Positions 3,830 to 56,810 of a stretch of 64,000 nucleotides of DNA are shown here, piece by piece (the first letter of the stretch is position 1; each line of letters begins with the position of its first letter). Source of the DNA: Sugiyamaella lignohabitans. Its lineage: Eukaryota; Ascomycota; Dipodascomycetes; Dipodascales; Trichomonascaceae. The notes under the pieces are model-generated. The model was given only the letters and a program-made list of their open reading frames with translations, searched no databases and had not been told where the DNA came from. The stretch is taken from assembly GCF_001640025.1 (NCBI RefSeq), contig NC_031673.1, positions 434,001 to 498,000 of the forward strand. The letters are read 5' to 3'. The position numbers were made by a program, and so were the translations under genes.

Positions 3830-3952
3830 GCCTCCGGCGGCCGGGCTCCGCCCGGACCTGGTTTTGCTCGCTTCGCGAGCCAGGTCTGGAAGTACAAGAA
3901 AGCTCGCGAAGCGAGCACAACCAGGTCCGGGCGGAGCCCGGCCGCCGGAGGC
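3830..3952. repeat. GC-rich inverted repeat, two 51-bp arms
   Basis: Left arm 3830..3880 and right arm 3902..3952 are near-perfect reverse complements around a 21-bp centre. Both arms use the CCGGGC-loop-GCCCGG stem variant in place of the usual CTGGGGC-loop-GCCCCAG. It lies between the convergent Spa2 and amidase genes, 59 and 58 nt past their stops. Confidence 0.95.
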
Positions 3953-4010
3953 ATGCCACAGCACGAAGCCAATTGAAGACATTTATTATATTAAATACGG
4001 GCCGTGGACA

Positions 4011-5675
4011 CTAGGAGTTTCGCTGGACGTAGACTACGCCAGATTTGTGGAGAGCGTCTTCAACGACCTCCATGGCTTTGATTACCTTTTCTTCTTCCAG
4101 ACGCTGGCCAACCACTTGGACTCCGACTGGGAGGCCGTGCATTTTTGTGGCGTCGTAGTTGTCATAGGCACCCTTGGCAATGCGGTTGAGTTTGTTCGGG
4201 TTGAAACCAGGTGGCAGCTGGTCTTTTTCTTTGTCAACTCTGGTGACTGGCAGGACACCGGCCGAATAGTCTAGCAGGTTAAACATGAATGTGTAGCCAC
4301 AGGACGAGATGGATTCGTAGAGACCCTTATGAGGCAGAGCAGGTGTAGCATTGGGTACAGTTAGCAGGATGTCGATTCCTGACTCCTTCCAGGCTTCGAA
4401 GAATTCCAATTTGTATTGCTCACGTTCAGCTACGAGATCCCATCTCTCGGTAATGGTCTTCTCATTCCAGTCACGCACCATATAGGCCCATACGGGGTCA
4501 CGATAGATATATTGCAGGATCCAGGCGTAGATTTTCTTGACAAAACGAGGAAGTCTTTGAGCGAAGAGCATTCGTCCGACACCGGCATCATTGTTCTCGC
4601 CCCAAAGCTGGCCACGAGTAGCGATTCTACCAGCATCAGAGCACAACAATTGAGAGGCAATACGGAGACAACGAAGTGGGTCGGGAGCATCAAACTTCAC
4701 AATCGAATGGCCTTGTTTTTCTAAAGCATCAATAGTGAGGTCAAGAGCACGGGCACAGGCAGGTGAGGGAGTCACAACACCGTCGTCATAAATAACACCA
4801 ACTTTGAGCTTAGCTGGAAGGTCAACTTTACGCCATGGAATTGGGTGAACGCTATAATCGTACTCCCAGGGCTTCATGTCAATAATTGTCTTGAGGAAGA
4901 ATCCAAGATCAGGAAGTGATCTGGTCATGGGTGAGTAGACAGCTGGGATACCTTCTTGGCCGGCCATAGACGTGGTGTTGCCAATTTTAGGAAATCTGCC
5001 AGTCGAGCATTTCAAACTGTAAATACCAGAGAAGTGAGCAGGAACCCGAACAGATCCGGCAACATCAGTACCTACACCCAACCTCGAACCGCCGTAAGCA
5101 AGTAATGCTGCTTCACCTCCAGTCGATCCACCAGGAGCATAATCCTTATGATAAGGATTACTAGTAACTCCCCAGACATCGTTATATGATTCAAAAGAGA
5201 GTAATGTGAAGGGAACATTGGTTTTCAGCATAGGTACAGCACCTGCATCTTTAAGAAGTTTCACAATTGGAGCATCCTTAACTGCTGGTTTGAATGAACG
5301 GGAGCTGTATCCAATACACGAATCATACCCAGTCACATTAATGGTATCCTTAAAGGTAATAGGGAAACCTGCCAATGGTCCTTTTGTATTTGCATGTTCG
5401 GCCCATTTCTCTGAATCCTTGATAAATATTTCAGTGATGGCATTAAGCTCTGGCTGCGACTCGAGAGCTCTTTTTCCATATGCCCGTAGAACTGAGATAG
5501 GTTTAATCTCACCAGCTTGAACTTTGGCAATTACTTTAGAAGCTTCTTGGGATAGAATTGATTTTTCTTCTTCTGTCAATGGCTCTTTATATTCAGGAAG
5601 ATCATTGATTCTATCTTCTCTTTCTTTCTGCTTAGCAGCTACTGTTTTCTTATGAAGAAAGTATGAAAATACCAT
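4011..5675 (-). CDS. Amidase-signature family hydrolase
   Basis: The 554-aa product is a fungal amidase-signature enzyme (acetamidase / fatty-acid amide hydrolase type), which hydrolyses a carboxylic amide to acid and ammonia or amine. The Ser-cisSer-Lys triad is complete: Lys109 in TFKDT, Ser184 in PGGSTGGE and nucleophile Ser208 in DVAGSVRVPA. The spacings of 75 and 24 residues match those known for FAAH. Length is typical of fungal AmdS/Amd2 proteins. The first ~20 residues are mildly hydrophobic then basic, so membrane association is possible but not shown. The start is the only sensible ATG. It converges on Spa2 and shares the GC inverted repeat with it. The substrate cannot be told from sequence. 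Confidence 0.88.
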   Translation of the reverse strand: MVFSYFLHKKTVAAKQKEREDRINDLPEYKEPLTEEEKSILSQEASKVIAKVQAGEIKPISVLRAYGKRALESQPELNAITEIFIKDSEKWAEHANTKGPLAGFPITFKDTINVTGYDSCIGYSSRSFKPAVKDAPIVKLLKDAGAVPMLKTNVPFTLLSFESYNDVWGVTSNPYHKDYAPGGSTGGEAALLAYGGSRLGVGTDVAGSVRVPAHFSGIYSLKCSTGRFPKIGNTTSMAGQEGIPAVYSPMTRSLPDLGFFLKTIIDMKPWEYDYSVHPIPWRKVDLPAKLKVGVIYDDGVVTPSPACARALDLTIDALEKQGHSIVKFDAPDPLRCLRIASQLLCSDAGRIATRGQLWGENNDAGVGRMLFAQRLPRFVKKIYAWILQYIYRDPVWAYMVRDWNEKTITERWDLVAEREQYKLEFFEAWKESGIDILLTVPNATPALPHKGLYESISSCGYTFMFNLLDYSAGVLPVTRVDKEKDQLPPGFNPNKLNRIAKGAYDNYDATKMHGLPVGVQVVGQRLEEEKVIKAMEVVEDALHKSGVVYVQRNS

Positions 5676-6643
5676 CTTTACCAGACCCGACTATCGATTA
5701 ATCCTAATCAATTCTTATCGATTTTCTTTTGGTGATCTATTATTATTAATTTTTGACCTGTTCGGATAAAAGGTATAAAAATAGATACCAATGACCAAAA
5801 TATCAATAACTCAAAGCCAATATAATCACAATAGTAGATCAAGAGAATTGATATATAGATCAGAATCTAAATGTAGAATTGGGAAACTGTTGTATATTTA
5901 TACCCCCACAATGACGGAAATAGGCGGGGATGCGATATGCAGGTCTCGCTTATACTAGCTGTTAACTGATAAGGGCCATAAATGCATAAGATAACCGCTT
6001 GTAATAGATGACTATGAGACTGAACAACCGGATGCACCCGACATTAGTGAAATATAGGTACCAGGTTCATTACTTTTCATTATGTAAAGGGAAAATGTGA
6101 TCTCTAAAGTGGATACTTCACGAATATTCAGCAGATAATGCCTGTTCGGGGTTAACACTAGCCGACTTGAGTAATTGGTATCACCAGCTCGATCTAGATT
6201 ATCTATGGCTCAAATTAGATTAAATCCGAAACGCAGCCTGTACGCGAAACCAATGCACCATCTGAAATCTTGATTCAATTGTTTTCCATTAACAACACAC
6301 AATTGATACGAATTTTAGTTATTAGTACTCTCTTCTCATTTATTTCACTCGTCGGATACAGTTGAAATGCCGACCACGATAAATCGGCCACTTGCAATTG
6401 CCGTACCATGCACTACCCCGCTGTCTCTTAACGTATACTGAAACCCCACTGGCTATCAGTTAACGTATACTGAAATATTTCACGTCTCGGTCGACGCCTT
6501 GAGACATTCGGTTTGACTAGTCTTGAGAATTTTATTTTATTTAAATTTAGTACATCTGCCAAGTTTGTGCTGGGTTTCACAATTGATTAACAATTCACTA
6601 ATTGATTAAGTCATTTCCTCGGGTATTAAATATTAGTTCGCAG
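5676..6643. other. Divergent intergenic region, amidase / trimethyllysine dioxygenase
   Basis: An AT-rich 968-bp spacer between divergent genes, so it should hold both promoters. A TATAAAAA box lies at 5774..5781 on the plus strand. The only strong internal structure is the 16-bp direct repeat listed at 6428. No coding potential is seen. Confidence 0.6.
6428..6475. repeat. Direct repeat TTAACGTATACTGAAA, two copies
   Basis: Exact 16-bp copies lie at 6428..6443 and 6460..6475, 32 bp apart (about three helical turns), roughly 170-215 bp upstream of the dioxygenase ATG. Spacing and position suit a paired regulator site; the factor is unknown. Confidence 0.6.
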
Positions 6644-8029
6644 ATGACTGTTCCAACTGTTCACTTTGATGCCGAGAAGGTATCAGTTACTTGGAAAGAC
6701 GGAGTGACATCTAAATAGTAAGTGATTTGTGATTTTTTTGGAATCCTGGAAACTGAAGTAAGATGAGCTAAGGATTTTTTCAAATACTGGGGAATTCGGA
6801 GCACTAACACAATTCTAGTCACAACATCTGGTTGAGGGATACCTGCCAGTGTAAAGAACACTTTCACCCAATTACCAAGCAACGTCTTCAAAACACCTTT
6901 GCAGTGAGTATTTTCAACCTCGTCAACTCGTTCAATAGCAAGTTGTATGGAATATTTTCTAACTGGAATTAATAGATCCCCGAAGATGTTCATGCCAAGG
7001 ATGCGAAATTTACTGGTGATGCTGTTGATGTGACCTGGGAGTATGACGGTCATGTCAGCTCATACCCTGTTGAATGGCTGAAACTTCATTCATATGATCC
7101 AGTCTTGGTCAAAGAGAAAACTGCCAAAATTGAAAGAATTCTCTGGACACCCAAGGACATGGAAAAGTCTCTGCCCACTGTAGATTTCAACGAAGTCATG
7201 AAATCGGACGAGGCCGTTGCTGACTGGACCAAGAAAATCGTAAGTAATACCAATTCTACTGCGCAGTTTATTCCGAGTATGTTATCTAACATTTCAGTAT
7301 GTTCATGGCTTTTGTATGATCGACAATGTTCCAGTGAATCCAAAGGACACCGAGAAACTGGTCGAACGTATTTCATACATTCATCACACACACTACGGAG
7401 GATTCTGGGATTTCACTGCTGATCTCGCTATGAACGATACTGCCTATACCAATCTGTATCTTGCATCTCACACAGACGGTACCTACTGGTCCAACACCCC
7501 TGGTCTCCAACTGTTCCATTTACTCCACCACGACGGCCGCGGTGGAGAGACCATGCTAACTGACAGTTTCAAGGCTGCTCAAGAACTGAAAAAGCAGTCC
7601 CCCGAATCATATGACTTCTTATCTAGGACCTTGATCCCCGCACACAGTGCCGGTGAAGAAGCTGTCTGTATCACTCCTATCTCACCACAGCCTGTTTTCA
7701 CACACGACCTGCAAAATAAAGATGAGCTTGTTCAGGTCCGCTGGAACAACGACGACAGGTCGACAATGGATCAATGGAAAGACCCCAACGACGTTGTAAA
7801 GTTTTACAAGGCGATCCGTCTGTGGAAAAAGATCCTCGAACAGCATGAGATCGTCGTCAAACTCGTACCTGGCAGATGTCTTATTTTCGACAACTGGCGT
7901 GTTCTTCACGGCCGTATGGGCTTTGACGGCTCCCGCAGAATGTGTGGAGCCTATGTCAACCGTGACGACTTCATTTCCCGACTCCGCCTGCTCAATCTCG
8001 GGAGGGAAGAGGTGCTACGGTCTCTGTAG
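6644..8029 (+). CDS. Trimethyllysine dioxygenase (carnitine biosynthesis), four exons
   Basis: Exons 6644..6717, 6819..6903, 6976..7239 and 7298..8029 give 384 aa. All three introns have GTAAGT/GTGAGT donors and CTAAC 7-12 nt before AG, and all joins keep frame. The protein aligns along its length with TMLH/gamma-butyrobetaine hydroxylase: a short N-terminal domain with WLRD, then a TauD-type 2-oxoglutarate/Fe(II) fold. Iron ligands are His199 and Asp201 (HTDGTY) and about His345 (VLHGR); the 2-oxoglutarate arginine lies in GSRRMCG. ERISYI followed by DTAYT is closer to TMLH than to the butyrobetaine enzyme. It would hydroxylate trimethyllysine in the first carnitine step. The N-terminal beta domain has CQCKEHFH, which may replace the zinc site. 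A GC arm begins one base after the stop. Confidence 0.88.
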
Positions 8030-8030
8030 T

Positions 8031-8192
8031 GCCTCCGGCGGCTGGGGCGCTGCCCCAGACCCCGTTGCTCCTCTCGCCGTGCTCGAGTCGAGCTCCGGTG
8101 AATCTAAACAAAATATATATTGCCAATGACCGGGAATAAGCTCGCGAAGCGAGCACAACGGGGTCTGGGGCAGCGCCCCAGCCGCCGGAGGC
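8031..8192. repeat. GC-rich inverted repeat, two arms
   Basis: The left arm starts one base after the dioxygenase stop; the right arm ends at 8192. Outer parts match as reverse complements, but the inner stems differ (CTCTCGCCGTGCTCGAG left, CTCGCGAAGCGAG right). The spacer is AT-rich. Confidence 0.95.
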
Positions 8193-8507
8193 ATCGCTCA
8201 CCCCACCACGTACCCTAACCCGTAATCACGGAAACGGGAAATTTCAGGGGAAGCCCACCTCGATTTTGTTTTTCAGTAAATTAAAAAAAAGTTTCGTAAG
8301 TTAGAAAGCCGTCTTTTAAATTCATATGTTTTATTCATTTTACACTCTGCAAATCAAGTCATTAATTCATCTGATCTAGTTCGTCTAGTTCTCCCCTACT
8401 AGCTCTCAGCTTGGTAGAGGTCACCAGCTGGAGAACACACAGGACAGGTTACAATCAAAGAGACCTACCTATGTACTGTTGGTATGGCCCTTGACCTCCA
8501 ACAAGCT
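8193..8507. other. Intergenic, convergent 3' ends
   Basis: AT-rich spacer between the GC inverted repeat and the gluconokinase stop. No gene, repeat or hairpin of note was seen. Confidence 0.5.
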
Positions 8508-9330: not shown

Positions 9331-9553
9331 GATTCCTATTACTTTTAATATTATATTTTTTCCAACTGAAGCGATAGAACTCAACAAATATCGCGGGAGG
9401 ATCTAATGTGACTCTGAAATTTCCCGACTACCGGATCAATTGGGGGTGGTCGTGTGCGGCAGAAGCACGGGAGTGGGGGTTGAGATGCGCGGATCGACGA
9501 CCTCGAGATCCTCCTCAACGAAATTCTGGGGGTCATTTTTCCACCTCCAGACT

Positions 9554-9708
9554 GCCTCCGGCGGCCGGGCTCTGCCCGGACCCGTTGTGCTCGCTCCGCG
9601 AGCGGCTTGGACCCTGGTGGACCCTGCATCTGACCAAGTGTCAGGGATCGACTCGAGCGGAGCGAGAGGAGCAACGGGGTCTGGGGCAGAGCCCCAGCCG
9701 CCGGAGGC
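9554..9708. repeat. GC-rich inverted repeat with mismatched arms
   Basis: The left arm carries the CCGGGC/GCCCGG stem variant with CTCGCTCCGCGAG; the right arm carries CTGGGGC/GCCCCAG with ACTCGAGCGGAGCGAG. The pair is therefore built of two different subtypes. The right arm lies 82 nt past the mL57 stop. Confidence 0.93.
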
Positions 9709-9790
9709 AGTCCGATACCGCTAATTCTGATACTAAATCACGTATTTATACTATTTACAGAGCACGAGGAGGTTCCACAGCTATTATGTA

Positions 9791-10552: not shown

Positions 10553-11058
10553 TCCAAAATGCAAATAAATAAAAGCTGTGGCGGGCTACCCGGTATTAAT
10601 CCCCTCGACTGGCTATCGAATTTCAGGCAATTGATCTTGTGAGTGGATGGCGTCTGAGTTGGAATTTTTCACTTCACATGCACCCTTGCCCATCATCAAA
10701 ATAGGGTGCTTATGCGATCCTCCTCCCTGCTCACATGTTCGAGGGTGGGTCTGCCTCCGGCAGCTGGGGCTCTGCCCCAGACCCCGTGGCTCCTGCTTCG
10801 CAGGAGATATTTTCGCTCGGAATTGTTTTAAACTGATTTAAATGGGATGTAATAGCAAAAGGTGTGGAGTGAAGTGTGAAAAATAAAGGAAAAAGTTGGT
10901 CTGCAGAATCGCTATCTTTTAATTTTAAGGGTTTGGTTCCTATTACGGCCTGATAAGAAAAAATATTGTTTCCAGAGTTTCACTGCATTTATCGACGTAC
11001 AAAATATTTCGCTAGAAGTTCATATCCAAATATTAACTTGTAGTGGAAATTGGTAAAG
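10553..11058. other. Divergent promoter region, mL57 / ROK1
   Basis: A 506-bp spacer between divergent starts. It holds one single GC arm (10753..10808) and otherwise AT-rich sequence with no coding potential. Confidence 0.5.
10753..10808 (+). repeat. Single GC-rich hairpin arm
   Basis: One arm in plus orientation: GCCTCCGGCAG, the CTGGGGC-TCT-GCCCCAG hairpin, ACCCCGTGG and the CTCCTGCTTCGCAGGAG hairpin. No partner arm lies nearby. It sits in a divergent promoter region rather than at a gene end. Confidence 0.9.
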
Positions 11059-18317: not shown

Positions 18318-18371
18318 GCCTCCAGCGGCTGGGGCTTTGCCCCAGACCCCTTGGCTCCTGCTTAGCAGGAG
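18318..18371 (+). repeat. Single GC-rich hairpin arm
   Basis: Plus-orientation arm with GCCTCCAGCGG, loop TTT in the main stem, and a decayed inner stem CTCCTGCTTAGCAGGAG. It is 43 nt past the monooxygenase stop, in sense orientation. Confidence 0.9.
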
Positions 18372-20132: not shown

Positions 20133-20289
20133 GCCTCCGGCGGCTGGGGCTCTGCCCCAGACCCCGTCGCTCCTCTCGCTTCGCTCGAGTCGGACATCGG
20201 GCATCCAACGTTAAACAGATATAAGGGGGGCCAGCGGAACGAGCGAAGCGAGCCACGGGGTCTGGGGCAGAGCCCCAGCCGCCGGAGGC
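20133..20289. repeat. GC-rich inverted repeat, two arms
   Basis: It lies between convergent DUS1 and BET5, 46 and 43 nt past their stops. The left inner stem is of the CTCTCGCTTCGCTCGAGT type; the right is GAGCGAAGCGAG. The spacer is about 40 bp. Confidence 0.95.
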
Positions 20290-20332: not shown

Positions 20333-21187
20333 CTATTCAAACCCGGCCAGCGAGGTGATGAAAGCATCGAGCCCAAGCATGAACAGCTCGTTGTTGACGC
20401 CTTCTCCGCCCGGGTGCTCTATAGGGCTTAGTGGGCTGCAATCGTGGTTAGATTTTTCAACTTGAAAGGCAGATGATTTGGGTACTTACTTCTTAACAAC
20501 GTATTCGACGTAAAGCGTGGTGTAGATTTCGTTGAGGACAGGTCTCATGTTGTCGACTTTGGGGTCGGTGATAAGGACAAATTTGATATTCGACGGAGGT
20601 TCAAAATAATGCAGTCGGTATTTGCTGGTGCGGAATGATATGAAAGAGTCCTGGTCGGTCAGCTTACGGACCATGCTTCTCATGGAGTAGATAACACCAA
20701 AAATCAGTTTGGCATCGTCAGCTTTGTTTCGAGGGGCCTGATTCTGCGTTGGTAACAGGTTGGCTTTTGGAGCACGATTAAACAGTTCATTTGGCGCAGG
20801 AATTGAGTTCGATATTCTTTTTGAAGGCGTGCTCCCACTTGGAACTGTATGCCATTCTCTTGAGTAAATGCATTCGGCTGGTGAGAGGTTAGTTCGAGCA
20901 TTTCAGTTGCGTTCAACGCAATTTCACCTTCGAAATTATCAGAAATTTAATCGTAAATTAAGAGAAAAAACAGGAAAAATTCAGGTACACAAGTGAGAAC
21001 GGAATAGACAGGAACAAACAAAAGTCAATTACTAAAAGTCGGCTCCTGAAGCATGAATTATAGTTTCAAGGCAAGAGCGTGTGTCAACAGCTTTGCTAAG
21101 GGACCATTTTTAAATTTCAGAATTACGATACATCACGATGCTGTACTTACCATGGCGGTCAAATAAATGAAAAGAATATATCGTCAT
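20333..21187 (-). CDS. BET5: TRAPP complex subunit Bet5 (TRAPPC1), three exons
   Basis: Exons 21151..21187, 20490..20877 and 20333..20435 give 175 aa in frame. Both introns have GTAAGT donors and CTAAC 10-11 nt before AG. The protein starts MTIYSFHLFDRHAECIYSRE, the longin-type start of Bet5/TRAPPC1, continues with DDAKLIFGVIYSMRSMVRKL, then TSKYRLHYFEPPSNIKFVL, and ends in LYVEYVVKNPLSP plus a helix. Bet5 is a core TRAPP subunit and part of the Ypt1 exchange factor in ER-Golgi transport. A Pro/Ser-rich insert of about 35 residues (about 25-60) replaces the shorter loop seen in other species. The gene is easy to miss because exon 1 encodes only 12 codons. Confidence 0.88.
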
Positions 21188-22771: not shown

Positions 22772-22908
22772 GCCTCCGGCGGCTGGGGCCCTGCCCCAGA
22801 CCCCGTAGCTCCTCTCGCTTTGCTCGAGTCGTTTCCGTGGTCGGTCCTAGCCATCTCCTGTGAAGCAAGAGCTACGGGGTCTGGGGCAGCGCCCCAGCCG
22901 CCGGAGGC
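22772..22908. repeat. GC-rich inverted repeat, two arms
   Basis: Left arm loop CCT, right arm loop GCG (read on the plus strand CAGCGCC). It lies between the CWC15 start and an unresolved minus-strand gene whose open frame runs into the right arm and stops inside the element. Confidence 0.93.
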
Positions 22909-23546
22909 AATGACCCCCCCTTCCCTTCTTACGGACCCAACTGGTACTCTTCGACTTCACTGAAATGGTCTTGAGACTCGAGATTGGTCCGCGGCTGATG
23001 GTTGAAGACTGGCGTTCTGAGGTTGGCAGCAGGGACGGGTTGCTGATGCCGATGACTCGATCTGCAGCATCGTTCGAGAACAGCTTTTTCCGCGGAGCAA
23101 GGCCGCATTTCCGATGATGACTGGGCGTAGTCTTACAAAGACTAATCCAAACCATGCAAAATTCACCATCGAACAGTGACTAACAATCAGCCATGAGACC
23201 CAACTAAATAGTAGTTCGACCAAATTCCCCGCAGAACTCGGCACTCAGACTCCGATACCAGCAGCTTCGTTTCGCAAAAAAACCCCAATTTATCCCAATT
23301 CCCACGAAAATCTTCTGCGAAGCAGAAGCCACGGGGTCTGGGGCGGAGCCCCAGCCGCCGGAGGCAACAGCCCAACCCGAAGAGATACCAGTCCCCCTGA
23401 AAAGGTGTCTCACTAACTCGGTCACGTCGATTGGTGCCTGAGTAAGCGGCATGCAGAAGATGAGATAAAGATTTGACAACCTGCAGGTCAGCTCGCCGCA
23501 CATCGGTATATGTCGGCTGGCCACAAGTTTGTGCATATGGGTTCAT
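22847..23546 (-). CDS. Possible two-exon gene of unknown function
   Basis: I do not recognise this one. An ATG at 23546, preceded by a TATA-like AT block, opens a 43-codon exon (23418..23546) ending at a GTTAGT donor. A frame-compatible second exon could run from 23179 (after TTGTTAG) to 22847, giving about 153 aa. Exon 2 has basic, Ser-rich sequence such as HHRKCGLAPRKKLFSNDAADR and ISRGPISSLKTISVKSK. The branch site is not CTAAC, which weakens the model, and the last ~20 codons lie in the GC repeat. Alternatives are a third exon, a pseudogene, or no gene. The predicted intron contains a single GC arm. Confidence 0.3.
23312..23365 (-). repeat. Single GC-rich hairpin arm
   Basis: Minus-orientation arm with inner stem CTTCTGCGAAGCAGAAG, a compensated variant of CTCCTGC/GCAGGAG (both sides changed). 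It falls in the proposed intron of the unresolved gene at 22847..23546. Confidence 0.9.
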
Positions 23547-27666: not shown

Positions 27667-27721
27667 CTCCTGCGAAGCAGGAGCAACCAGGGTCTGGGGC
27701 GGAGCCCCAGCCGCCGGAGGC
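27667..27721 (-). repeat. Single GC-rich hairpin arm
   Basis: Minus-orientation arm with the CTCCTGCGAAGCAGGAG inner stem, 30 nt past the RLF2 stop and in sense orientation to it. Confidence 0.92.
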
Positions 27722-30870: not shown

Positions 30871-30874
30871 CTGC

Positions 30875-31363: not shown

Positions 31364-31554
31364 GCCTCCGGCGGCTGGGGCTGCGCCCCAGACCCCATTG
31401 CTCCTGCTTCGCAGGAGATTGCTTCGACCGTAGCGCTCAGCTGCTGCTGGCAATTGTTTTCACAGTCAAATACACTAGATTCACTCCACGGTCCAAGCAA
31501 CCTCCTGCGAAGCAGGAGCAACGGGGCTGGGGCGCAGCCCCAGCCGCCGGAGGC
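31364..31554. repeat. GC-rich inverted repeat, two arms
   Basis: Both arms carry a TGCGCCCC-type loop and the CTCCTGC/GCAGGAG inner stem. The spacer is about 80 bp, longer than most. The right arm lies 39 nt past the peptidase-like gene's stop; the left follows the MFS pseudogene. Confidence 0.95.
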
Positions 31555-34269: not shown

Positions 34270-34405
34270 GCCTCCGGCGGCTGGGGCTCCGCCCCAGACC
34301 CCGTTGCTCCTGCTTCGCAGGAGATTGCTAGGACCGTGGACGGACCGACTCGAGCGGAGCGAGAGGAGCAGCGGGGTCTGGGGCGGAGCCCCAGCCGCCG
34401 GAGGC
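34270..34405. repeat. GC-rich inverted repeat, two arms
   Basis: The left inner stem is CTCCTGCTTCGCAGGAG, the right ACTCGAGCGGAGCGAG, so the arms are of different inner subtypes. The right arm lies 46 nt past the SLX4 stop. Confidence 0.95.
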
Positions 34406-37510: not shown

Positions 37511-37570
37511 CGACTCGAGCGAAGCGAGAGGAGCCACGGGGTCTGGGGCGAAGCCCCAGCCGCCGGAGGC
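37511..37570 (-). repeat. Single GC-rich hairpin arm
   Basis: Minus-orientation arm with the ACTCGAGCGAAGCGAGAG inner stem and loop CGA, 87 nt past the cyclophilin stop and in sense orientation to it. Confidence 0.92.
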
Positions 37571-37657: not shown

Positions 37658-38525
37658 TTAGACAGTACCGGAAGCGTCAATGACGAGCTTGGCACGGGTG
37701 GCACCGGAAGAAGAACCGAAGGTCTCGATCTTCTTAACGACATCGTAACCCTCGACAACCTCACCGAAGACAACGTGCTTGCCATCCAACCAAGGACAAG
37801 GAACGGTGGTGATGAAGAATTGAGAACCGTTGGTGTTGGGACCGGCATTGGCCATGGACAAAAGACCAGGACGGGTGTGCTTGGCTTGGAAGTTCTCATC
37901 AGCGAACTTGGCACCGTAGATCGACTTACCACCAGTACCGTTGTGGTTGGTGAAGTCACCACCTTGGAGCATGAACTCGGGGATAACTCTGTGGAAACCG
38001 GACTTGGCGTATCCGAATCCCTCAGAACCGGTGGCGAGCTCACGGAAGTTCTTGGCGGTCTTGGGGACAATCTGGGCCACTGTTAGCATTTGCCGGGTTT
38101 CTAGGGGTGAGTGGGGTATGCCTCCGGCGGCTGGGGCTCCGCCCCAGACCCTGGTTGCTCCTCTCGCTTCGCTCGAGTCGTTGCATCGACGGTTCGTAGC
38201 AAAAAACTCCTGCGAAGCAGGAGCAACCAGGGTCTGGGGCGGAGCCCCAGCCGCCGGAGGCACAGGTCCCCCAGCTAGAAAACACCACTTACGTCGTCGT
38301 AGAGCTTGAAAACAATACGGCCGAGGGGCTTGCCTGTTGGTTTGTTAGCAATTGAGGTCAATTGAGGTGTTGACGGGGCCCTGGAGGGCCGGGCGAGGGC
38401 AACTTACCGTCGGCAGAGGTGTCGAAGTAAACGTTAGAACCCATTTTTAAAGTTGAGGCAGAGAAGAATCGCTTGGCAGTGAAACTGGAACTATTAATCA
38501 AAGAAGGACGCAACGAATTGAGCAT
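37658..38525 (-). CDS. CPR1: Cyclophilin (peptidyl-prolyl isomerase) with mitochondrial and cytosolic starts, three exons
   Basis: Coding exons are 38408..38525 (from the upstream ATG) or 38408..38444 (from the inner ATG), then 38293..38333 and 37658..38071. Products are 190 and 163 aa. Both introns have a GTAAGT-type donor and CTAAC 10 nt before AG. The core is a complete cyclophilin [25 protein letters not shown], and [11 protein letters not shown], including Arg, Phe, Gln, Trp and His of the cyclosporin/proline site. The 27-residue extension ([20 protein letters not shown] then FSASTLK) is basic, acid-free and hydroxylated, a typical mitochondrial presequence. One gene may thus supply Cpr1-like and Cpr3-like proteins. 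Intron 2 contains a complete GC inverted repeat. Confidence 0.9.
38120..38261. repeat. GC-rich inverted repeat inside cyclophilin intron 2
   Basis: Both arms lie entirely within the 221-nt intron 38072..38292. Left inner stem CTCTCGCTTCGCTCGAGT, right CTCCTGCGAAGCAGGAG. Both arms carry the CCTGGTTGC junction variant. Confidence 0.95.
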
Positions 38526-39607: not shown

Positions 39608-39744
39608 GCCTCCGGCGGCTGGGGCTCTGCCCCAGACCCCGTGGCTCCTCTCGCTACGCTCGAGTCGGTTACGTCGACAGTCCCAGCAGTCTCCTGCGAA
39701 GCAGGAGCTACGGGGTCTGGGGCAGAGCCCCAGCCGCCGGAGGC
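39608..39744. repeat. GC-rich inverted repeat, two arms
   Basis: The left inner stem is CTCTCGCTACGCTCGAGT, the right CTCCTGCGAAGCAGGAG. It is not close to any recognised gene end. Confidence 0.95.
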
Positions 39745-41467: not shown

Positions 41468-41517
41468 GCCTCCGGCGGCTGGGGCTCTGCCCCAGACCCC
41501 GTGGCTCGCTTCGCTCG
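41468..41517 (+). repeat. Single GC-rich hairpin arm
   Basis: Plus-orientation arm with inner stem GCTCGCTTCGCTCG, about 150 bp upstream of the thioredoxin-like ATG; no partner. Confidence 0.9.
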
Positions 41518-42451: not shown

Positions 42452-44451
42452 ATGGATAATCTCAGGGACACTATTGCCAACATCTCTTTATACGATGTCA
42501 AGGCGTATGTCCGTAAAGCCCAAAATGGTGAGTTCACACCGACAATGAGAGCAATTTTGTGTGAATTCTTCGGTCCCAGCGAGCTGATTAAGTCTCTGAT
42601 GAGAAAACTGAGAAGAGAGAGGATGTTTTGAGGTTATAGTTGTATTTGAAGCTCGTCGGAGATATACTGGGAGGCTGTACATAAGTTGCTCAGCCAAGCA
42701 TATTTCACTTATATCAGTACTAACATTCTAAACAGTGGTTATGAACTACACGGAAATGGAAGCCAAGGTGCGAGAGGCCACCAACAACGAGCCATGGGGA
42801 GCCAGTAGCACTTTGATGCAGGAAATCGCCAATGGTACCAACTCATAGTAAGTTCACCAGTCGGGTCGGAACCGGCATTCAGGGATGGACTCCCATTCCC
42901 TGAAAACTAAGCTTTAACATCCTCAATTAAGTCTCTCAGAGTACGGGGTCTGAATTGTGTGTCAAAAAACACAAGAAACTGGATACCCCGACGCCCGACT
43001 CGAGCGAAGCGAGAGGAGCCACGGGGTCTGGGGCGGAGCCCCAGCCGCCGGAGGCAAGAACCCCGACCCTTCGATCACAGACTAACAATTGAAGCTCGCA
43101 ATTCCATGAGATTATGCCGATGATTTATAAGAGATTCACGGACAAGTCAGCTGAGGAGTGGAGACAGATATACAAGGCTTTGCAACTGCTTGAATTTTTG
43201 GTGAAGAACGGTTCAGAGAGGGTGGTGGACTACGCACGATCGCACTCGGCAGTTATTGATATGCTCAAGCATTTCCATTTTATTGACCAGAATGGCAAGG
43301 ACCAGGGAATCAACATTCGAAACCGAGCTAAGGAGTTGACGGCTTTGCTAAACGATGTTGAAAGAATCCGTACTGAGAGAAAAAAGGCTCGTTCTAACAA
43401 GGCCAAGTACTCTGGTATTGGCAACGATATTGAGGGAGACGAGGATTTTGGCGGTTTTGGTGGTACAGGCAAAAAGTATGGTGGTTTTGGTAGCGACAGC
43501 ATGGAGTTTGGTGGTGGATATAATGCCAATAAGGTTTATGGCGACGGTGGTGGGTTCAATGGTAGCAACTACGATGGACCCGGTTACTCTCGTGGAGCAG
43601 GAGCTGGTGATGATGACGAGTTTGAGGAGTATGAAGTGGGTGGTGGATATAACGATGATAGCAGTGGAAGTGCTGGCAGTACTAGTGGATCCCGTAATAA
43701 GGGCAAGACAGCAGCATCGAGTTCGTCGAGAACCAAGACGACAAGTTCTTCGTCTGCAGCAGCTCCAGCTCCAGTAGCTGATTTCATCTCTTTTGATGAC
43801 GATGTTGCCCCTCCTGCTGCTACTGGCGCCTCTAGTTCAGCAGCAGCTGAGGATGACGACGATTTTGACGATTTCCAAAGCGCTACTCCTGTTGCCGGTG
43901 CCAGTTCTAACACTAAGACCACTGGCGGCGGCTCGTCAACTAAAGCCGATTTATTAGATCTCTTTTCACAACCCTCAACCGCATCATCATTCCAATCACA
44001 ACCTCTACAACAACAGCAACAATTTTCAAGCTTCACCTCGTCTCCAGGTCTGCCAACTCAATTATCCAGTACACCATCAGTTGTATCTCCTAGTGCCTTT
44101 TCCACTACATCGACAATTGGCAGCAACAGCACTGGCTTTCCCGGCTTTTCATCCACACCCTCGACTCCTTCTATCGGTGCTGGTTCGGGTCTAGGCAACA
44201 GTAGTACTGGCAAACCAGCTGCTAAAAAGGCCAACGACGCATTTGGCGACCTGTGGTCAAGTGCCAGCAAGACAAAGAAGTCGTCAGCCAAGACCGAGCC
44301 AACCAGTCTCGCTGCCTTGGCCCACGAGAACGCCCAAAAAAGCATGTGGGGAGGTGCTCCTGCCTCGTCTTCGTCTCCCAGCCAGCCTCAGCCCCAGTCC
44401 CAGCAACCCAGCTCCAGCTCCGGCCAGATCGACGACCTCCTCTCCTTCTAA
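42452..44451 (+). CDS. ENT3: Epsin-like adaptor Ent3, three exons
   Basis: Exons 42452..42527, 42736..42847 and 43095..44451 give 514 aa in frame; introns have GTGAGT/GTAAGT donors and CTAAC 8-11 nt before AG. The ENTH domain spans about 1-155: MDNLRDTIANISLYDVKAYV, then VVMNYTEMEAKVREATNNEP, then EEWRQIYKALQLLEFLVKNG and DQGINIRNRAKEL. The start NISLYDxKxYxRKAQN is specific to the Ent3/epsinR type. The Gly-rich, then Ser-rich tail has a gamma-ear-like DFDDFQ motif (about 253) and ends in DDLLSF, a clathrin-box-like sequence. Ent3 binds PI(3,5)P2 and recruits Gga/AP-1 for Golgi-endosome transport. The last intron carries a GC arm. Confidence 0.92.
42997..43055 (-). repeat. Single GC-rich hairpin arm inside ENT3 intron 2
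   Basis: Minus-orientation arm, antisense to ENT3, wholly inside the intron 42848..43094. It is nearly identical over its length to the arm at 37511..37570, including the preceding ACGCCCGACTCGAG. Confidence 0.92.
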
Positions 44452-44509: not shown

Positions 44510-44654
44510 GCCTCCGGCGGCTGGGGCTTTGCCCCAGACCCCGTAGCTCGCTTCGCTCGTTACTAAGGCCCCCTCGAGCTATTTCTGTGGTGAGGGTCGA
44601 GCTTCGAGCGAAGCGAGCAACAGGGTCTGGGGCAGAGCCCCAGCCGCCGGAGGC
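44510..44654. repeat. GC-rich inverted repeat, two arms
   Basis: It lies between the convergent ENT3 and RWD genes, 58 and 24 nt past their stops. Inner stems are short (GCTCGCTTCGCTCG and CGAGCGAAGCGAGC). Confidence 0.95.
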
Positions 44655-44678
44655 AGTCGGGCCGGTAGAAAATCCTAT

Positions 44679-46188: not shown

Positions 46189-48804
46189 ATGATCAGACTA
46201 CAAGTCAGAATCATACCTGCTAGTCAGGCTGATAATGAAGTATCCTCACGGGTTAGTAGACCATCGAATTTTGGACCTAGCTCCTATCATTTGCAAAGCT
46301 CGACGCCAAATGCCTCAGTGAAATCCTTTTCAAATAATGATGACGATACTTATGGATTTCTTCATTTGGTCACTCCATCTGAGCTGTTGAAAACTGTTCG
46401 AGACAGTATCGTTAACAGATTTGCAAAAATTTATCCGGAAGAGGGTCCTTTATTTATCGAGCGTCTTCAAGACTCGTCAGGACTGGATTTAGACCCTGAT
46501 TACAAGGTTGGTGATGTATTTGCTGACCGTGACGACCTTTTTGTTATATTACAAGAACCAGTTACAAGAAACGATATCTTACAATCCAACGTCTCGGTTG
46601 CCGATGAGCCATCACTCAAGCGACGCGCTGAAGATGACAGTAATAGTAGCATTGTCCTGCGTCCTACCAAATCTCGTAAACGCAAGAGTTCTATTTGGAT
46701 GACTCCTTCAAATAATGCTGCTGACATTTCGTCATTATCACACACTCCGGTGCCTGTTCTTTCTAGCGGTACTCCGGCGTCACACTTGAATGTTGCACCA
46801 CAACTTTCAGAGTCAAATGGCTCGCCTCGTGTTAGACGTCGGCCCTCTTTGGACTTAATGGCCAAACCTTCTGCTGCTGAAATCCCTGATTCTGACGTAG
46901 ATGAGGAAGCTCATGAAGGAAATCTCAGCTTACCTCCACCATCGAATGAGGCATATGCCAATGCTGACCCTCTTAAACCAGTTTCTCCTAGCGCCAACCT
47001 GAATGGCTCCAAGAATATACTGAATTTGGAGAGTGACAAGGTACAATTGCTCCCTCCAACACCAGCCAAGAAATCTCCTATAGCTGGTAAGAAACGGGCA
47101 CCTCAATCTGAACTACAGTTGACACCTGAAATTACTGTCAAGGCAGCCGAACAGGCTGAAGCTGTTCTAGAGGTAGCTTCAAGTCAACCAAGCCAGGATG
47201 AGGCAAGTATCACGCAAGAGTCAGATGACAAAATTGAAACTGGATTACAGCCAATTGCTGGAACCCCTACCGGCAGCCAGCCAAAAGCTAAACGTCAAAG
47301 AGCCAAAGCCACAGAGAAGAAAATTCAAGACACTCTCATTAATGCTACAGAGACAAAGGGTGTAGAAGTTTCTCCTATTAGTGGTCTCACTCGAAAAGAA
47401 CAGGCTCAAGAAGCAAAACGTCTCAGAGAAGAGGCCAAGAAGCTCAAACAGCTCGAAGCTCAAAAGAAAAAAGAAGAGCAGCTAAAGAAGAAGGAGCTTC
47501 AAGCCCAGAGAAAAAGGGAACTGGAAGCCCAAAAATCAGCTAAAGCAGCAGAGTTGAGAGAATTGCAAAGGAAAAAGGCTCTTGAAGAACTTGAAAAGCT
47601 TGGCGAGGAGAATAGACGTAAAAGGGAAGAAGAGAGGTTGAAACAGCAAGAGCAGCAACAACGGGAGCAAAAGGACGAAACAAATCCTAGTCAAGATGAT
47701 ATAATCGAGACTGAAAATTCAGACGACGGTGCCAAGGGCAAGAAACGACCTTCTGCTGAGACTTTACGACGAAACCAACAGCGTTTGGAGGCCAATCGAA
47801 AAAGTATGGAGAAGTTCCACAATGCTGTTAATAGTCTAGAAAAGGATGCTGATGGTTCAGCTGCTGTTCCTGAGGCCAGCGTAGAACCACCAACCCAGTC
47901 AGAGGAACCACCTAAGAGGAAAAGAGGTAGACCACCCAAGAAGAAGGTAGAAGTTCAACCAGAGACTGTGAAACCTGTCTCGCCTGTGAAGCCAGATGTA
48001 GTTCCAACTGCTGCCAAGATAAATGGTTCTCAAGGGTCTACGAATGACAAACAGGAGAACAAGCAAGAGGAACCTAATGATAACGAGGAGGATGACGATG
48101 AGCAAGAAGAGGGGCAAAAAATAAAACCAGTGACTAATCAGCGATCTCAAGGTAATACAGCAGCTCGCTATGCTCAAAGACTACTTCGTGACGATTCTAA
48201 TTCAGATTCATCGAGTGCGGATGAATTATCTGACGGAGACTCTGACTTATCAGATAGCCCGGCCCCGGTAAAGAGGCCCCGTATTGTTCCTACACCTTCA
48301 TCTGCAAAACTAGTAACAGCAAATGGAAATGGACGAGCTACTGGTTCTCAATCGCAGGCTTCACCAGCTCCAAACCCTGTTCGCACCACTATGCCTCAAC
48401 CGCACCCCAGTGCCGTTAGAACCTCCTCTGCTACCCCCAGTAGTCCAAATCCAGCTCCACAGACAAGGCTCACTGGTCTCAACTTGTTGAGTTCTTTGGC
48501 TTCACAAGCGATTCCTGACGTTCGGGAGAGAGTCACTGGAGTCCTGCCAGTTGCACCAAAGGTCAATTCTAAACCCAGTCAGCCTAAAGAAGATACTGAC
48601 TCAGATTCGAATTCGGATTCGGACTCGGATTCTGACTCGGATTCAAATTCCGACTCTGACGCAGAGTCAGATGGTGAGGAAACCAATGGAATCCCTCTCT
48701 CCAAGATGGCAAGCAAGACTAAGCAGCCTAAAAAGAAGAAGAGAAACACTGGTTTTATGGGTCTCATGAAAGATGCTTTTGCTGGCAGTGTGAAGTCCCG
48801 TTGA
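46189..48804 (+). CDS. Net1/Tof2-like nucleolar protein
   Basis: The 871-aa protein begins with a folded domain (about 1-125) containing HLVTPSELLKTVRDSIVNRF and SSGLDLDPDYKVGDVF, which matches the N-terminal region shared by Net1 (Cfi1) and Tof2. The rest is disordered: a Lys/Glu/Arg helical segment (about 400-500), an AT-hook-like KRKRGRPPKKK (about 575), an acidic patch, a long Ser-Asp repeat (about 805-830) and a Lys-rich end GFMGLMKDAF. In S. cerevisiae Net1 anchors Sir2 and Cdc14 at rDNA and promotes Pol I. Lineages outside the whole-genome-duplication group are expected to have one Net1/Tof2 gene. The call rests mainly on the N-terminus. Confidence 0.68.
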   Translation: MIRLQVRIIPASQADNEVSSRVSRPSNFGPSSYHLQSSTPNASVKSFSNNDDDTYGFLHLVTPSELLKTVRDSIVNRFAKIYPEEGPLFIERLQDSSGLDLDPDYKVGDVFADRDDLFVILQEPVTRNDILQSNVSVADEPSLKRRAEDDSNSSIVLRPTKSRKRKSSIWMTPSNNAADISSLSHTPVPVLSSGTPASHLNVAPQLSESNGSPRVRRRPSLDLMAKPSAAEIPDSDVDEEAHEGNLSLPPPSNEAYANADPLKPVSPSANLNGSKNILNLESDKVQLLPPTPAKKSPIAGKKRAPQSELQLTPEITVKAAEQAEAVLEVASSQPSQDEASITQESDDKIETGLQPIAGTPTGSQPKAKRQRAKATEKKIQDTLINATETKGVEVSPISGLTRKEQAQEAKRLREEAKKLKQLEAQKKKEEQLKKKELQAQRKRELEAQKSAKAAELRELQRKKALEELEKLGEENRRKREEERLKQQEQQQREQKDETNPSQDDIIETENSDDGAKGKKRPSAETLRRNQQRLEANRKSMEKFHNAVNSLEKDADGSAAVPEASVEPPTQSEEPPKRKRGRPPKKKVEVQPETVKPVSPVKPDVVPTAAKINGSQGSTNDKQENKQEEPNDNEEDDDEQEEGQKIKPVTNQRSQGNTAARYAQRLLRDDSNSDSSSADELSDGDSDLSDSPAPVKRPRIVPTPSSAKLVTANGNGRATGSQSQASPAPNPVRTTMPQPHPSAVRTSSATPSSPNPAPQTRLTGLNLLSSLASQAIPDVRERVTGVLPVAPKVNSKPSQPKEDTDSDSNSDSDSDSDSDSNSDSDAESDGEETNGIPLSKMASKTKQPKKKKRNTGFMGLMKDAFAGSVKSR

Positions 48805-49228
48805 TGTGGAATAAATGTATTAATATTTGATGATAAAGTTTATAACAGCTAATAATAATGACTATTTAATTTTTACAAACAACTCAGATGCCTAGTGAAT
48901 TCCTATCCCTCATTGCAAAAATATCAAATCCGATACTAGGTGTGACGACTCGAGCGTAGCGAGAGGAGCAACGGCGTCTGGGGCAGAGCCCCAGCCGCCG
49001 GAGGCAGAATGGACAACAGAATATTCATTCGAGATAGGACTTAAAAGCCGGGTAACAGGCAAACGCGAAATGTTCGCCATATGGTACTTCCTAAAACGGA
49101 TAATTAAATGAAACGCGAAAATCGCAGATGATCGGCGTGTATGCCAGTTTCTATTTAGCTTTGCATATTTCTTAACATTTATTGTGTCTCCTCTTACCCA
49201 CACTACAAACAATTTCATAAACAAAACA
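48805..49228. other. Intergenic, NET1-like to MCM4
   Basis: 424 bp between tandem plus-strand genes. It contains one GC arm (48947..49005) and the MCM4 promoter. Nothing else noted. Confidence 0.5.
48947..49005 (-). repeat. Single GC-rich hairpin arm
   Basis: Minus-orientation arm with ACTCGAGCGTAGCGAG and an ACGGCGTC variant of the ACGGGGTC junction. It is antisense to both flanking genes and 142 nt from the nearest stop. Confidence 0.9.
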
Positions 49229-51949: not shown

Positions 51950-52059
51950 GTTAATGTGGTGTACGATTGTTGATATTTATAAATATAACTAATAATGATA
52001 GATATGTTTCTGCAAAACATGAAGGGCATTAATAATTTAAAGGGCTATATACAGTATAT

Positions 52060-54579: not shown

Positions 54580-54842
54580 CCCGAGAAATCAAGTTCCTGG
54601 AGAGTGCTAGCTGACCGAAGTGAGTCTGGCTTGTGAATATAGTGGTATAGTATGGTCGAAGCACGGCTACAAAAAATTCACTGCGAAAAGATCATGACGA
54701 TCAACATGAGAAGCTTTTATGCAGGGCATATACGGCTAGTTCAAGGTTAAATTTATTGTCAGTCAGTCGTCTTTTAAATATCCAGGAGTACCGTACAAGT
54801 ATTCTTGGATGACGTCTTTCTCACACTCTTTTCAACTTATTT

Positions 54843-56696
54843 ATGCCGCCAAAGAGGAAGTCATTGCCTGACATCAGCAATGAGGGTCCTAGCCAGAAGA
54901 AGTTGTTTTTGCAGGCAGATTATAGAATAAAGTACGGGAAACCACAGCTCGAGAAATATGTTGCTCAATTTAATAAGGAAGTTGTAGAATTTCTGACTGG
55001 TATCGACACAAGTGACTCTGGAGAACAAGTAGATTTTGTTTCTGAGAAAGATAATGATGCTGGTACCGAAGAACCACTGGTGGATGACGTTTCGGAGAGA
55101 ACAGAGCCTGCTATTAATGGGTCAGAGGCAGTTACCAGCAAATCCGAGGTAGTTACCAACATATTAGAGGTGGATAGCGATTCTGAACACTCCACAAATG
55201 GGGTGTTAAATCGAGTCGATGAGTGTTCTTCTTCAGAAGACAGTATTGGCATTGATGAGACAGACCTTGAACCAAGCGAGGACGACTACAGATGTGGAAC
55301 GATCTGGTCAGAAGAGGAAAAGGAAAGGTTTTTTACGGCTTTGGGGCGAAAATCTTGCCACGATATGGCTGCTATATCTAGGGCTGTTGGAACAAAGACT
55401 CTCATCGAGTGCGAAGCATATTACAACCTCCTTAAATCATGCTATGAATATCTGAAACGAAGAAAGCCGCTACTTAGCAAAACTCTGCAGCGAGAAATAT
55501 TCGTTTCATACGAGGATTTGCCATATTCTTATGAAATGACGGAGTCATGGGACTCGGTTGAAAACAAATATGCCAATGCTGTAATTGACGCTATAGCGGA
55601 TATGGAGGTTGAAAAACAGAACCAGCAGCAAGAAACGACTAATGATCAGAATGGCACCACAGAACACACAAATTCGGAGCCTTTACTGTTAAAATTAGAT
55701 ACTGATACCTCTTCACAGCACCCGATAGATACCACCTTGATCAACGGTTCATCTCACGAGCATCCAAACACCGGTACCCTGCAGGGTGTCGGGTCTGAGA
55801 TCTCAGTTTCCAATGTAGCTTCATCTGATTATAAAGTATCTGCTACTAGGACAGCTACTACTGTAGCCACCAATGTAGTCCCTCGTAAGACCCTATTTGC
55901 GAAAAGGAGTGGAATGTGCGCAAAAGCATCTTCTCAACTGCTAAATATACCTGAAGCTGTGAAATTTGCCAACATGTTTTTCAGGCAGAGCCAAAAAAAT
56001 CTGGGACATATGTACCATCATGGTGGCCGTGGTCAAAAGAAAAGCCATTTTTATTTGGAAGACATTTCACAAGAAGCAGTCGATTATCTTGAGAATATTA
56101 TAAAATCTCAGACAAGATTAATATTGGGCAGATATATTTGGAGTGCCGAAGACTATGATCCCAGCGACGAGGAACATCGTAATAAAGCTTTCTATGAAAA
56201 TTTGGTCCATGCCATGGGTTACATTACACGGGTGAACAAGCACCTCCAGGAAAGGTATCCGAGAGCTACATTTTGGAAAGCTATTTCTGATTTTAATGGT
56301 GTTGAAATAGATACTTACAACACCCCTCCGCTACAAAAAAATCCCGCAGATGAGTACCGGTTTCACTTTGGTGTAGAGCCTAAACATCAAAATCGGTTCC
56401 CGTTCGGACTCAAACAACAATTCCAACCATACGAGCATTTGGCTTACAGCCAACCTACCATTGACGTAGAGGACTCATACAGCCCTCAACAGCGGAGATT
56501 TTTCCAACAGGTTTTAGAAGCAGCACAAGAAGTGGCACAACGCCGCCCAGAAGATTCAACGTCACCATCTGATATCGTCAAATCTAGCAACACAGACGAC
56601 GACATTGACAGATATCTTGATCTTGTTGAGATCGACATATCACGGCACGAAGAAAAACGGCTCCTGGTATGGTTTAATGGAGCCGAGGCTACTTAG
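54843..56696 (+). CDS. RRN5: RNA polymerase I upstream activating factor subunit Rrn5
   Basis: The 617-aa protein has the motif LEKYVAQFNKEVVEFLTG near 35-53, the Rrn5 signature that resembles a histone-fold lead. A SANT/Myb-like domain follows at about 155-210: GTIWSEEEKERFFTALGRKS and LIECEAYYNLLKSCYEY, with SYEMTESWDSVENKYANAV after it. Between are acidic linkers. Rrn5 pairs with Uaf30, Rrn9, Rrn10 and H3/H4 in UAF to activate rDNA promoters. The C-terminal half (about 370-560) is conserved-looking but unassigned. One exon. A single GC arm lies 55 nt past the stop. S. cerevisiae Rrn5 is shorter (about 360 aa), so the extra C-terminal length is notable. Confidence 0.8.
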   Translation: MPPKRKSLPDISNEGPSQKKLFLQADYRIKYGKPQLEKYVAQFNKEVVEFLTGIDTSDSGEQVDFVSEKDNDAGTEEPLVDDVSERTEPAINGSEAVTSKSEVVTNILEVDSDSEHSTNGVLNRVDECSSSEDSIGIDETDLEPSEDDYRCGTIWSEEEKERFFTALGRKSCHDMAAISRAVGTKTLIECEAYYNLLKSCYEYLKRRKPLLSKTLQREIFVSYEDLPYSYEMTESWDSVENKYANAVIDAIADMEVEKQNQQQETTNDQNGTTEHTNSEPLLLKLDTDTSSQHPIDTTLINGSSHEHPNTGTLQGVGSEISVSNVASSDYKVSATRTATTVATNVVPRKTLFAKRSGMCAKASSQLLNIPEAVKFANMFFRQSQKNLGHMYHHGGRGQKKSHFYLEDISQEAVDYLENIIKSQTRLILGRYIWSAEDYDPSDEEHRNKAFYENLVHAMGYITRVNKHLQERYPRATFWKAISDFNGVEIDTYNTPPLQKNPADEYRFHFGVEPKHQNRFPFGLKQQFQPYEHLAYSQPTIDVEDSYSPQQRRFFQQVLEAAQEVAQRRPEDSTSPSDIVKSSNTDDDIDRYLDLVEIDISRHEEKRLLVWFNGAEAT

Positions 56697-56751
56697 CATT
56701 TGCATTATTTATTTACTTTGCATTATCATTATATTTTTCAGAAATCACTTT

Positions 56752-56810
56752 GCCTCCGGCGGCTGGGGCTCCGCCCCAGACCCCGTTGCTCCTCTCGCTT
56801 CGCTCGAGTC
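56752..56810 (+). repeat. Single GC-rich hairpin arm
   Basis: Plus-orientation arm with the CTCTCGCTTCGCTCGAGTC inner stem, 55 nt past the RRN5 stop and in sense orientation to it. No partner follows. Confidence 0.92.

Follow-up and report, generated by a model that had tools for sequence, protein, structure and literature searches.

A REP-like hairpin element common to bacteria and a budding-yeast nucleus often lies in sense orientation behind stop codons

Hairpin arms in a 64-kb window of the yeast chromosome

The stretch analyzed here, called the window throughout, comprises 64,000 nucleotides of the genome of the budding yeast Sugiyamaella lignohabitans (contig NC_031673.1, here C4, positions 434001–498000), whose 15.93 Mb are assembled in four contigs. 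Its spacers carry a repeated module, or arm, consisting of an outer end GCCTCC, an extended hairpin of the form CGGCGGC-stem-loop-stem'-ACCC and often a second small hairpin. The usual arrangement is a facing pair of about 137 bp, and solo modules also exist. When one mismatch is allowed in the core GCCTCCGGCGGC, the window holds 33 arms, including arms distant from stop codons; GCCTCC alone occurs 45 times, compared with 22 expected. Pfam agrees with most of the gene names used below (GIT1_C/VBS, Amidase, TauD, RNase III-like, FMO-like, Dus, Cac1_C, M28, Slx4, Pro_isomerase, ENTH and RWD), with no match for RRN5, and contamination of the assembly was set aside because the arms sit between Pfam-confirmed yeast genes. 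The elements are as follows, facing pairs being given without a strand.

3830–3952, no strand: facing pair with the CCGGGC/GCCCGG stem variant, in the convergent SPA2/amidase spacer, with the stops 59 and 58 nt away
8031–8192, no strand: facing pair, its plus arm 1 nt past the stop of the TauD-type dioxygenase gene
9554–9708, no strand: facing pair, its minus arm 82 nt past the stop of the RNase III-like (mL57) gene
10753–10764, plus: solo arm with one core mismatch, in a divergent spacer
18318–18329, plus: solo sense arm with core GCCTCCAGCGGC (one mismatch), 43 nt past the FMO-like stop
20133–20289, no strand: facing pair in the convergent DUS1/BET5 spacer, with the stops 46 and 43 nt away
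22772–22908, no strand: facing pair of 137 bp, no assigned gene end
23354–23365, minus: solo arm core, no assigned gene end
27710–27721, minus: solo sense arm core, 30 nt past the RLF2/CAC1 stop
31364–31554, no strand: facing pair, its minus arm 39 nt past the M28 peptidase-type stop
34270–34405, no strand: 136-bp facing pair lying 46 nt beyond the SLX4 stop, whose plus arm is the 33-nt string also found in a bacterial genome (G260, see below)
37559–37570, minus: solo sense arm core, 87 nt past the cyclophilin stop
38120–38261, no strand: facing pair, within a long spacer that has no called coding segment
38810–38949, no strand: facing pair
39608–39744, no strand: facing pair
41468–41479, plus: solo arm, distant from all called stops
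43044–43055, minus: solo arm upstream of ENT3, no called stop nearby
44510–44654, no strand: facing pair in the convergent ENT3/RWD spacer, 58 nt from the ENT3 stop and 24 nt from that of the RWD gene
48994–49005, minus: solo arm, antisense exception, 189 nt past the stop at 48804
56752–56763, plus: solo sense arm core, 55 nt past the RRN5 stop
61426–61564, no strand: facing pair of 139 bp

A preliminary description of this DNA had assigned to fourteen genes an arm lying 1–87 nt past the stop codon, always beginning with GCCTCC in the direction of transcription. Thirteen of these distances were matched to the base by script, all in sense orientation (SPA2 59, amidase 58, dioxygenase 1, mL57 82, FMO 43, DUS1 46, RLF2 30, M28 39, SLX4 46, cyclophilin 87, ENT3 58, RWD 24 and RRN5 55 nt), and the remaining one, BET5 at 43 nt, was confirmed by reading the sequence (minus-strand stop TAG at 20335–20333, outer edge of the arm at 20289). 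The four single arms listed there at 18318, 27667, 37511 and 56752 are indeed all sense; the FMO arm at 18318 has one mismatch in its core, and the cores of the second and third lie at 27710–27721 and 37559–37570, the earlier numbers seemingly marking their inner sides. The sense rule holds at these fourteen gene ends and is broken further out by the antisense solo arm 48994. Between 38.1 and 43.1 kb of the window, three facing pairs and two solo arms occupy a region without a called coding segment.

Core, hairpin and placement in the yeast genome

Across the genome, the core occurs in 6232 exact copies (3117 + 3115), compared with a single copy (1 + 0) of the reversed control; at up to one mismatch the counts are 3546 + 3560, and 20 + 19 for the control. 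Further properties were determined in a sample of 314 kb, 2% of the genome, made up of 264 kb of C4 including the window and 50 kb of C1 (C1:200001-250000), in which 276 arms were counted at no more than one core mismatch. The base preceding the core is T in 262 of them, and positions −4 to −14 are G-rich. Among 236 yeast arms identified by their stem, 211 have the exact 11-nt core, 16 have one mismatch and 9 have more, and in 81 the loop is other than TCC. In many yeast arms the preceding G-rich stretch, often GGGGTCT, is complementary to AGACCCC behind the first hairpin. Forward-strand arms are unevenly distributed along C1:1-545740, with 38 at 200–262 kb and none listed at 116–165, 262–291 and 328–366 kb; the arm-dense sampled stretch of C1 has a G+C content of 0.51 vs 0.47 in the C4 sample.

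A facing arm was present within 400 nt for 197 of the 276 arms, and the other 79 were defined as solo; an alternative rule based on the next neighbour at 90–290 nt gives 102 solo arms instead. Neighbours in the order plus then minus show a sharp spacing peak at 113–115 nt, and a smaller group of same-direction neighbours (n = 19) lies 42–109 nt apart. The second hairpin, of which there are types a–d, often differs between the two arms of a pair. Among the 68 pairs of at most 160 bp no identical copies were found, and the nearest-neighbour score had a median of 0.92 of length. For the 87 facing pairs with 90–290 nt between cores, direct repeats in the flanks (k 2–8) did not exceed the shuffled expectation, indicating no target-site duplication; inverted flank symmetry of at least 5 nt occurred in nine of the 87, with a mean of 2.6 and a maximum of 8 in 300 shuffles.

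The stem starting at C12 reaches at least 7 bp in 210 of 237 yeast arms and at least 8 bp in 67 of 98 arms from the bacterial loci L056–L135 and in 26 of 55 from L249–L293, compared with at most 6 bp after shuffling. Different stems of at least 5 bp number 5, 8 and 21 in these three sets, some being shortened forms of others, and yeast and bacterial arms alike have T-A or C-G as the second stem pair. Such compensatory change within arms supports the formation of a hairpin by RNA or by a single strand, in agreement with the description of the arms as hairpin-forming. One facing pair, folded as a whole, gave −127.8 kcal/mol with a z-score of −15. In seven of eight folded single arms, the GG or GGCGG of the core pairs at least partly with the ACCC tail. 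GCCUCC remained largely unpaired in four of five folded yeast arms and was paired with the G-rich flank in one, and in all three folded bacterial arms it was paired elsewhere; because its pairing varies in this way, a free 5' foot is not established. Rfam returned no match at the gathering score, and below it nine microRNA-type matches for the window and ten microRNA-type matches plus one small RNA for nine bacterial loci.

For the 92 yeast gene ends of the sample, which were called by codon score with introns ignored, so that short or intron-rich genes such as BET5 are missing, the first arm within 150 nt past the stop was sense in 58 cases, antisense in 2 and absent in 32. When the same units were placed at random in non-coding DNA in 500 trials, 9.3 ± 2.9 sense arms (largest value 18) and 6.1 ± 2.4 antisense arms were obtained. 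The placement is real and not explained by chance, and both the gene-end rule and the sense orientation extend beyond the window. Arms are present in 17 of 23 convergent, 9 of 18 divergent and 20 of 23 tandem spacers, the latter of up to 1500 nt, and in 16 of the tandem spacers the first sense arm lies 30–113 nt past the upstream stop.

A symmetrical pair could mimic an orientation preference, and this palindrome artefact was set aside, as the solo arms alone retain the sense bias: 17 sense and 2 antisense within 150 nt of a stop, 17 and 4 within 300 nt. Equal numbers of the two, which the preliminary description had named as the outcome that would speak against its proposal, are thus not seen in this sample. 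Its interpretation is thereby supported in part, as regards placement, orientation and hairpin formation; the arms may act in 3'-end formation, stability or insulation, or may simply insert at gene ends. That the solo arms are former pairs with a decayed partner was also considered and rejected; of the 17 stop-proximal solo arms, 16 could be scored and one (A:175658) showed a plausible remnant. Two other raised partner scores (15 and 11) were produced by same-direction arms, and the control stretch at 800–1060 nt outscored the near stretch because other elements lie there.

The interval between stop and arm is mostly 30–70 nt long, has a G+C content of 0.40, is richer in T-runs and AATAAA than the 60 nt that follow armless stops, and turns G-rich in about its last 14 nt. 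Judged from these sequence features, the arm seems to start at the poly(A) site or immediately after it.

The same module in bacteria

In Acetobacteraceae, Sphingomonadales and a Desulfovibrio-type family the module is likewise repeated in many copies with a patchy distribution, a fact missed by the preliminary description. Similar strings may also occur in other yeasts. A hairpin-tail pattern matched 12 of 16 genomes tried, ten of which had 29–323 copies, and the reversed control gave 0–1. The class of G001 contained one match each in 2 of 239 other genomes; the family of G002 had many structured copies in 2 of 60 genomes and a single match in 7; the class of G013 gave no match in 99 genomes. 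The Desulfovibrio-type family (that of G012) matched in 26 of 59 genomes, with at least two matches in 18, and shows many different stems. A 33-nt string in one of its members, G260, is identical to a yeast string with 659 + 677 = 1336 copies, the reversed control having 0.

A bacterial pattern scan yielded at least 119 stretches (L056–L174), of which 80 (L056–L135) formed the main set and the remaining 39 (L136–L174) were counted separately. Among the matches listed, most are titled Acetobacteraceae, Roseococcus, Sphingomonadales, Polymorphobacter or unplaced Alphaproteobacteria, and the rest include chance matches within genes, for example in Streptomyces. Facing pairs in the 80 loci are mostly 109–130 bp long, a few measure 80–81 bp and one 41 bp. 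Many alphaproteobacterial arms have A-rich flanks where yeast arms have G-rich ones. Desulfovibrio-type arms (L257, L261, L264, L269 and others) are often trailed by more hairpins separated by ACCCC, a tandem form not noticed in the alphaproteobacterial copies of the 80 loci. Five viral-classed IMG/VR contigs (L039, L041, L045, L048 and L053) bear facing pairs of 123–128 bp. Phages could be carriers of the module; a blastn search of plasmid and phage records with one 152-base element found no match, and a spurious open reading frame (ORF) through the element, used as a query for other carriers, gave 23 candidates, none at an E-value of 0.01.

Bacterial ORFs were called by length and third-position G+C. 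Within 100 nt, the 46 intergenic solo arms of L056–L135 have a stop (32 cases) or a start (4) at the outer edge and a stop (17) or a start (5) at the inner edge; the probability of 1.9e-6 obtained for the 32:4 ratio refers to stops vs starts at the outer edge and is not a comparison of sense with antisense. For the 25 intergenic solo arms of L136–L174 the corresponding counts are 20 and 2 (outer) and 9 and 2 (inner). Taken together, sense and antisense stops of alphaproteobacterial solo arms stand at 52:26 within 100 nt (32:17 + 20:9) and at 45:17 within 30 nt. The solo-arm search required an intact T-type stem, so that some arms counted as solo have an uncounted variant partner, and the 41-bp pair (L130) entered as two solo arms. 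Bacterial pairs (n = 48) had a stop at the outer edge in 34 cases and a start in 6. In the Desulfovibrio-type loci L260–L293, with 34 distinct arms of which 27 lie outside ORFs, there were 18 sense stops, 3 antisense stops and 5 outer starts within 120 nt; a set combining viral with Desulfovibrio-type loci (29 arms, of which 18 lie outside ORFs), which shares 6 of those 34 arms, gave 10, 3 and 4, respectively.

Interpretation and comparison with known systems

We tentatively favor the explanation, at somewhat less than even confidence, that the arms are copies of a REP-like element (REP, repetitive extragenic palindrome) common to both domains, which is retained behind genes in the role of a sense 3'-end hairpin. 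Two facing modules make up a unit of about 137 bp, similar to the REP doublets called REPINs, that can fold as a single long hairpin. The module would spread as a selfish element, having multiplied to about 6200 exact cores in the yeast, and would be retained mainly where its sense strand can serve as a 3'-end hairpin, typically 30–70 nt past the stop and directly behind a stretch resembling a yeast poly(A) signal region. At the cleavage site or shortly after it, RNA polymerase II would then run into a highly GC-rich block able to form a hairpin, which may favor pausing and 3'-end formation and may separate convergent neighbours. In bacterial carriers, where the module lies mostly at most 30 nt past the stop, it may act as a terminator or as a 3'-end protector.

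Several observations weigh against a function at gene ends. Only 61 of the 276 arms are sense and within 150 nt of a called stop, and because most sampled arms are not near one, function cannot be the sole reason for retention, although the gene calls are incomplete. The share of exact cores is the same close to stops as away from them (55 of 61 vs 189 of 215) and the same for paired as for solo arms (174 of 197 vs 70 of 79), giving no sign of extra selection at gene ends, in a test that is weak since the arms were preselected at no more than one mismatch. A third of gene ends lack such an arm and evidently manage. The folding advantage of single arms over shuffled sequences is modest and variable (z 0.1 to −3.0). 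The 17 solo sense arms include at least four (41500 in the C1 sample; 234096, 68908 and 68988 in the C4 sample) whose spacer also contains a facing arm more than 400 nt away, two that share one stop, and one that lies antisense 160 nt from a second stop; antisense solo arms lie at 108, 113, 160 and 189 nt. AT content is no higher in the intervals preceding arms than in the 50 nt that follow armless stops (G+C 0.40 vs 0.36), and TAYRTA is similarly frequent in both (6.4 vs 5.4 per kb). Finally, alphaproteobacterial solo arms show 26 antisense stops beside the 52 sense ones, and since many of these arms lie between convergent stops, their orientation is only a bias.

The main rival is a purely insertional cause, in which a transposition or template-switch machinery inserts the element at single-stranded or R-looped transcription ends with an orientation set by transcription, copies that land in genes and promoters are eliminated, and the arms do nothing for the host. 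The patchy high-copy distribution (many copies in 2 of 60 genomes, matches in 26 of 59 and in 0 of 99), the REPIN-like pairs, the majority of arms away from called stops and the equally exact core everywhere are all in its favor. Yet a symmetrical pair has no orientation to fix, and solo arms without partner remnants would need a separate, sense-only route of insertion. Nor was a machinery found, the Y1 transposase being absent from the yeast by PF01797 and the flanks showing no target-site duplication, and a recent burst is not apparent, with none of the 68 sampled pairs identical and nearest copies at a median of 0.92 of length. On balance we regard pure selfishness as rather unlikely, and as less probable than retention of the element as a 3'-end hairpin.

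Independent convergence, in which strong GC-rich gene-end hairpins evolve time and again as terminators and yeast and bacteria resemble each other by coincidence, appears improbable. It can draw on inverted repeats past stops, which are common in bacteria according to the available part of PMC13155455, and on AT-rich inverted repeats near poly(A) sites of Saccharomyces cerevisiae, as reported in the accessible part of PMC6420913. It is already strained by sequence identity, as the two domains have in common the 12-nt core, the stem start, the ACCC tail, the facing-pair layout and the 33-nt string, with reversed controls of 0–1, and as even one match occurs in just 2 of the 239 other genomes of the class of G001. 

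A broader proposal, which we put forward with slightly more reserve than the retention of the element at yeast gene ends, is that one REP-like hairpin element crossed between bacteria and the nucleus of a budding yeast, reached thousands of copies in that nucleus and follows the same sense, past-stop bias in both domains, which would make it a 3'-end element working in both expression systems. The sequence, copy number, pairing, placement, orientation and sharing with bacteria are observed facts; selfish spread, the direction and route of transfer, and an effect on termination are inferred from them.

A non-autonomous cut-and-paste DNA transposon (a miniature inverted-repeat transposable element) with terminal inverted repeats would account for facing ends of about 50 nt in a unit of about 137 bp; this is very improbable, given flank direct repeats not above the shuffled expectation (k 2–8, 87 pairs), the existence of solo arms and the compensatory change inside arms. 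Spread by biased DNA uptake, as for the uptake signal sequences of Neisseria and Pasteurellaceae, fits a short core preserved exactly across thousands of copies, with facing pairs at gene ends, and the link between such sequences and terminators described in the available part of PMC1852404, and is the least probable of all, as neither a covarying hairpin beside the core nor presence in a yeast and in distant bacteria is a feature of uptake signals.

If the placement reflects function, the hairpin repeat at 58 of 92 sampled gene ends would be a natural experiment in the conversion of repeats into 3'-end signals; an insertional origin would instead illustrate orientation-based targeting of transcription ends. 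In either case, a near-identical REP-like repeat in bacteria and in a eukaryotic nucleus points to cross-domain transfer of non-coding elements, and a yeast chromosome would not be expected to share an element, in a comparable position, with unrelated bacteria.

Among the best matches listed in keyword searches of the literature, none describes the element; the original genome paper (Bellasio 2016) lay outside that search and may note the repeat. The 12-mer appears in 2 papers and five sub-strings in 28, all unrelated as judged by title. GCCTCC and GGAGGC are absent from the main text, as far as it was available, of RepRanger (PMC12306157) and of a paper on GTAG/CGTC repeats (PMC3733652), and no such repeat is mentioned in the available parts of the Blastobotrys genome (PMC4022394), Trichomonascus (PMC13130702) and Sugiyamaella novakii (PMC12232646) papers.

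Among known systems, the closest in architecture are the REP and REPIN doublets accompanied by RAYT (REP-associated tyrosine transposase), which, in the accessible parts of PMC3116915 and PMC2817692, combine a short outer end with a hairpin, form facing doublets spaced near 71 or 110 bp that fold into a long hairpin with compensatory changes, and occur in hundreds of extragenic copies. The yeast element likewise has a conserved outer end, a hairpin, a facing doublet, a preferred spacing and compensatory change. It differs in its outer end, GCCTCC instead of GT(A/G)G; a GTAG head is absent from the flank composition of the 276 arms, which were selected by core and have the GCCTCC outer end by construction. 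RAYT, an IS200-like Y1 transposase (PF01797), has no match in the yeast genome and is matched in only one of 11 bacterial carriers, several of which are drafts or metagenome-assembled genomes. The faster decay of singlets than of doublets that is predicted for REPINs was not seen in the yeast sample (exact core in 70 of 79 solos vs 174 of 197 paired arms), again in a weak test on preselected arms. The element further differs in its sense placement past stops and in its presence in a eukaryotic nucleus with 6232 exact cores.

The GC clusters of yeast mitochondrial DNA, mentioned in the available part of PMC5499181 (see also PMC4478555), are also short, GC-rich palindromic repeats that multiply in spacers, whereas the present module is nuclear, placed at gene ends and shared with bacteria; the two are likened by description, not by sequence. 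Bacterial intrinsic (bidirectional) terminators are resembled, by eye, by the many alphaproteobacterial pairs with A-rich and T-rich flanks between convergent stops. The module differs in being nearly fixed in sequence and repeated hundreds of times, and solo sense arms are followed by ACCCC and not by a T-run; no T-run was noticed behind yeast arms. In the uptake signal sequences of Neisseria and Pasteurellaceae, facing pairs double as terminator hairpins (PMC1852404, in its available part), and they share with the yeast element the many copies of a short exact core and the facing pairs behind genes; the yeast element differs by the covarying hairpin beside its core, the unit of about 137 bp, the oriented solos and the cross-domain carriers. 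By analogy, these uptake-signal terminators may be considered the nearest functional parallel for an exact core arranged in facing pairs at gene ends.

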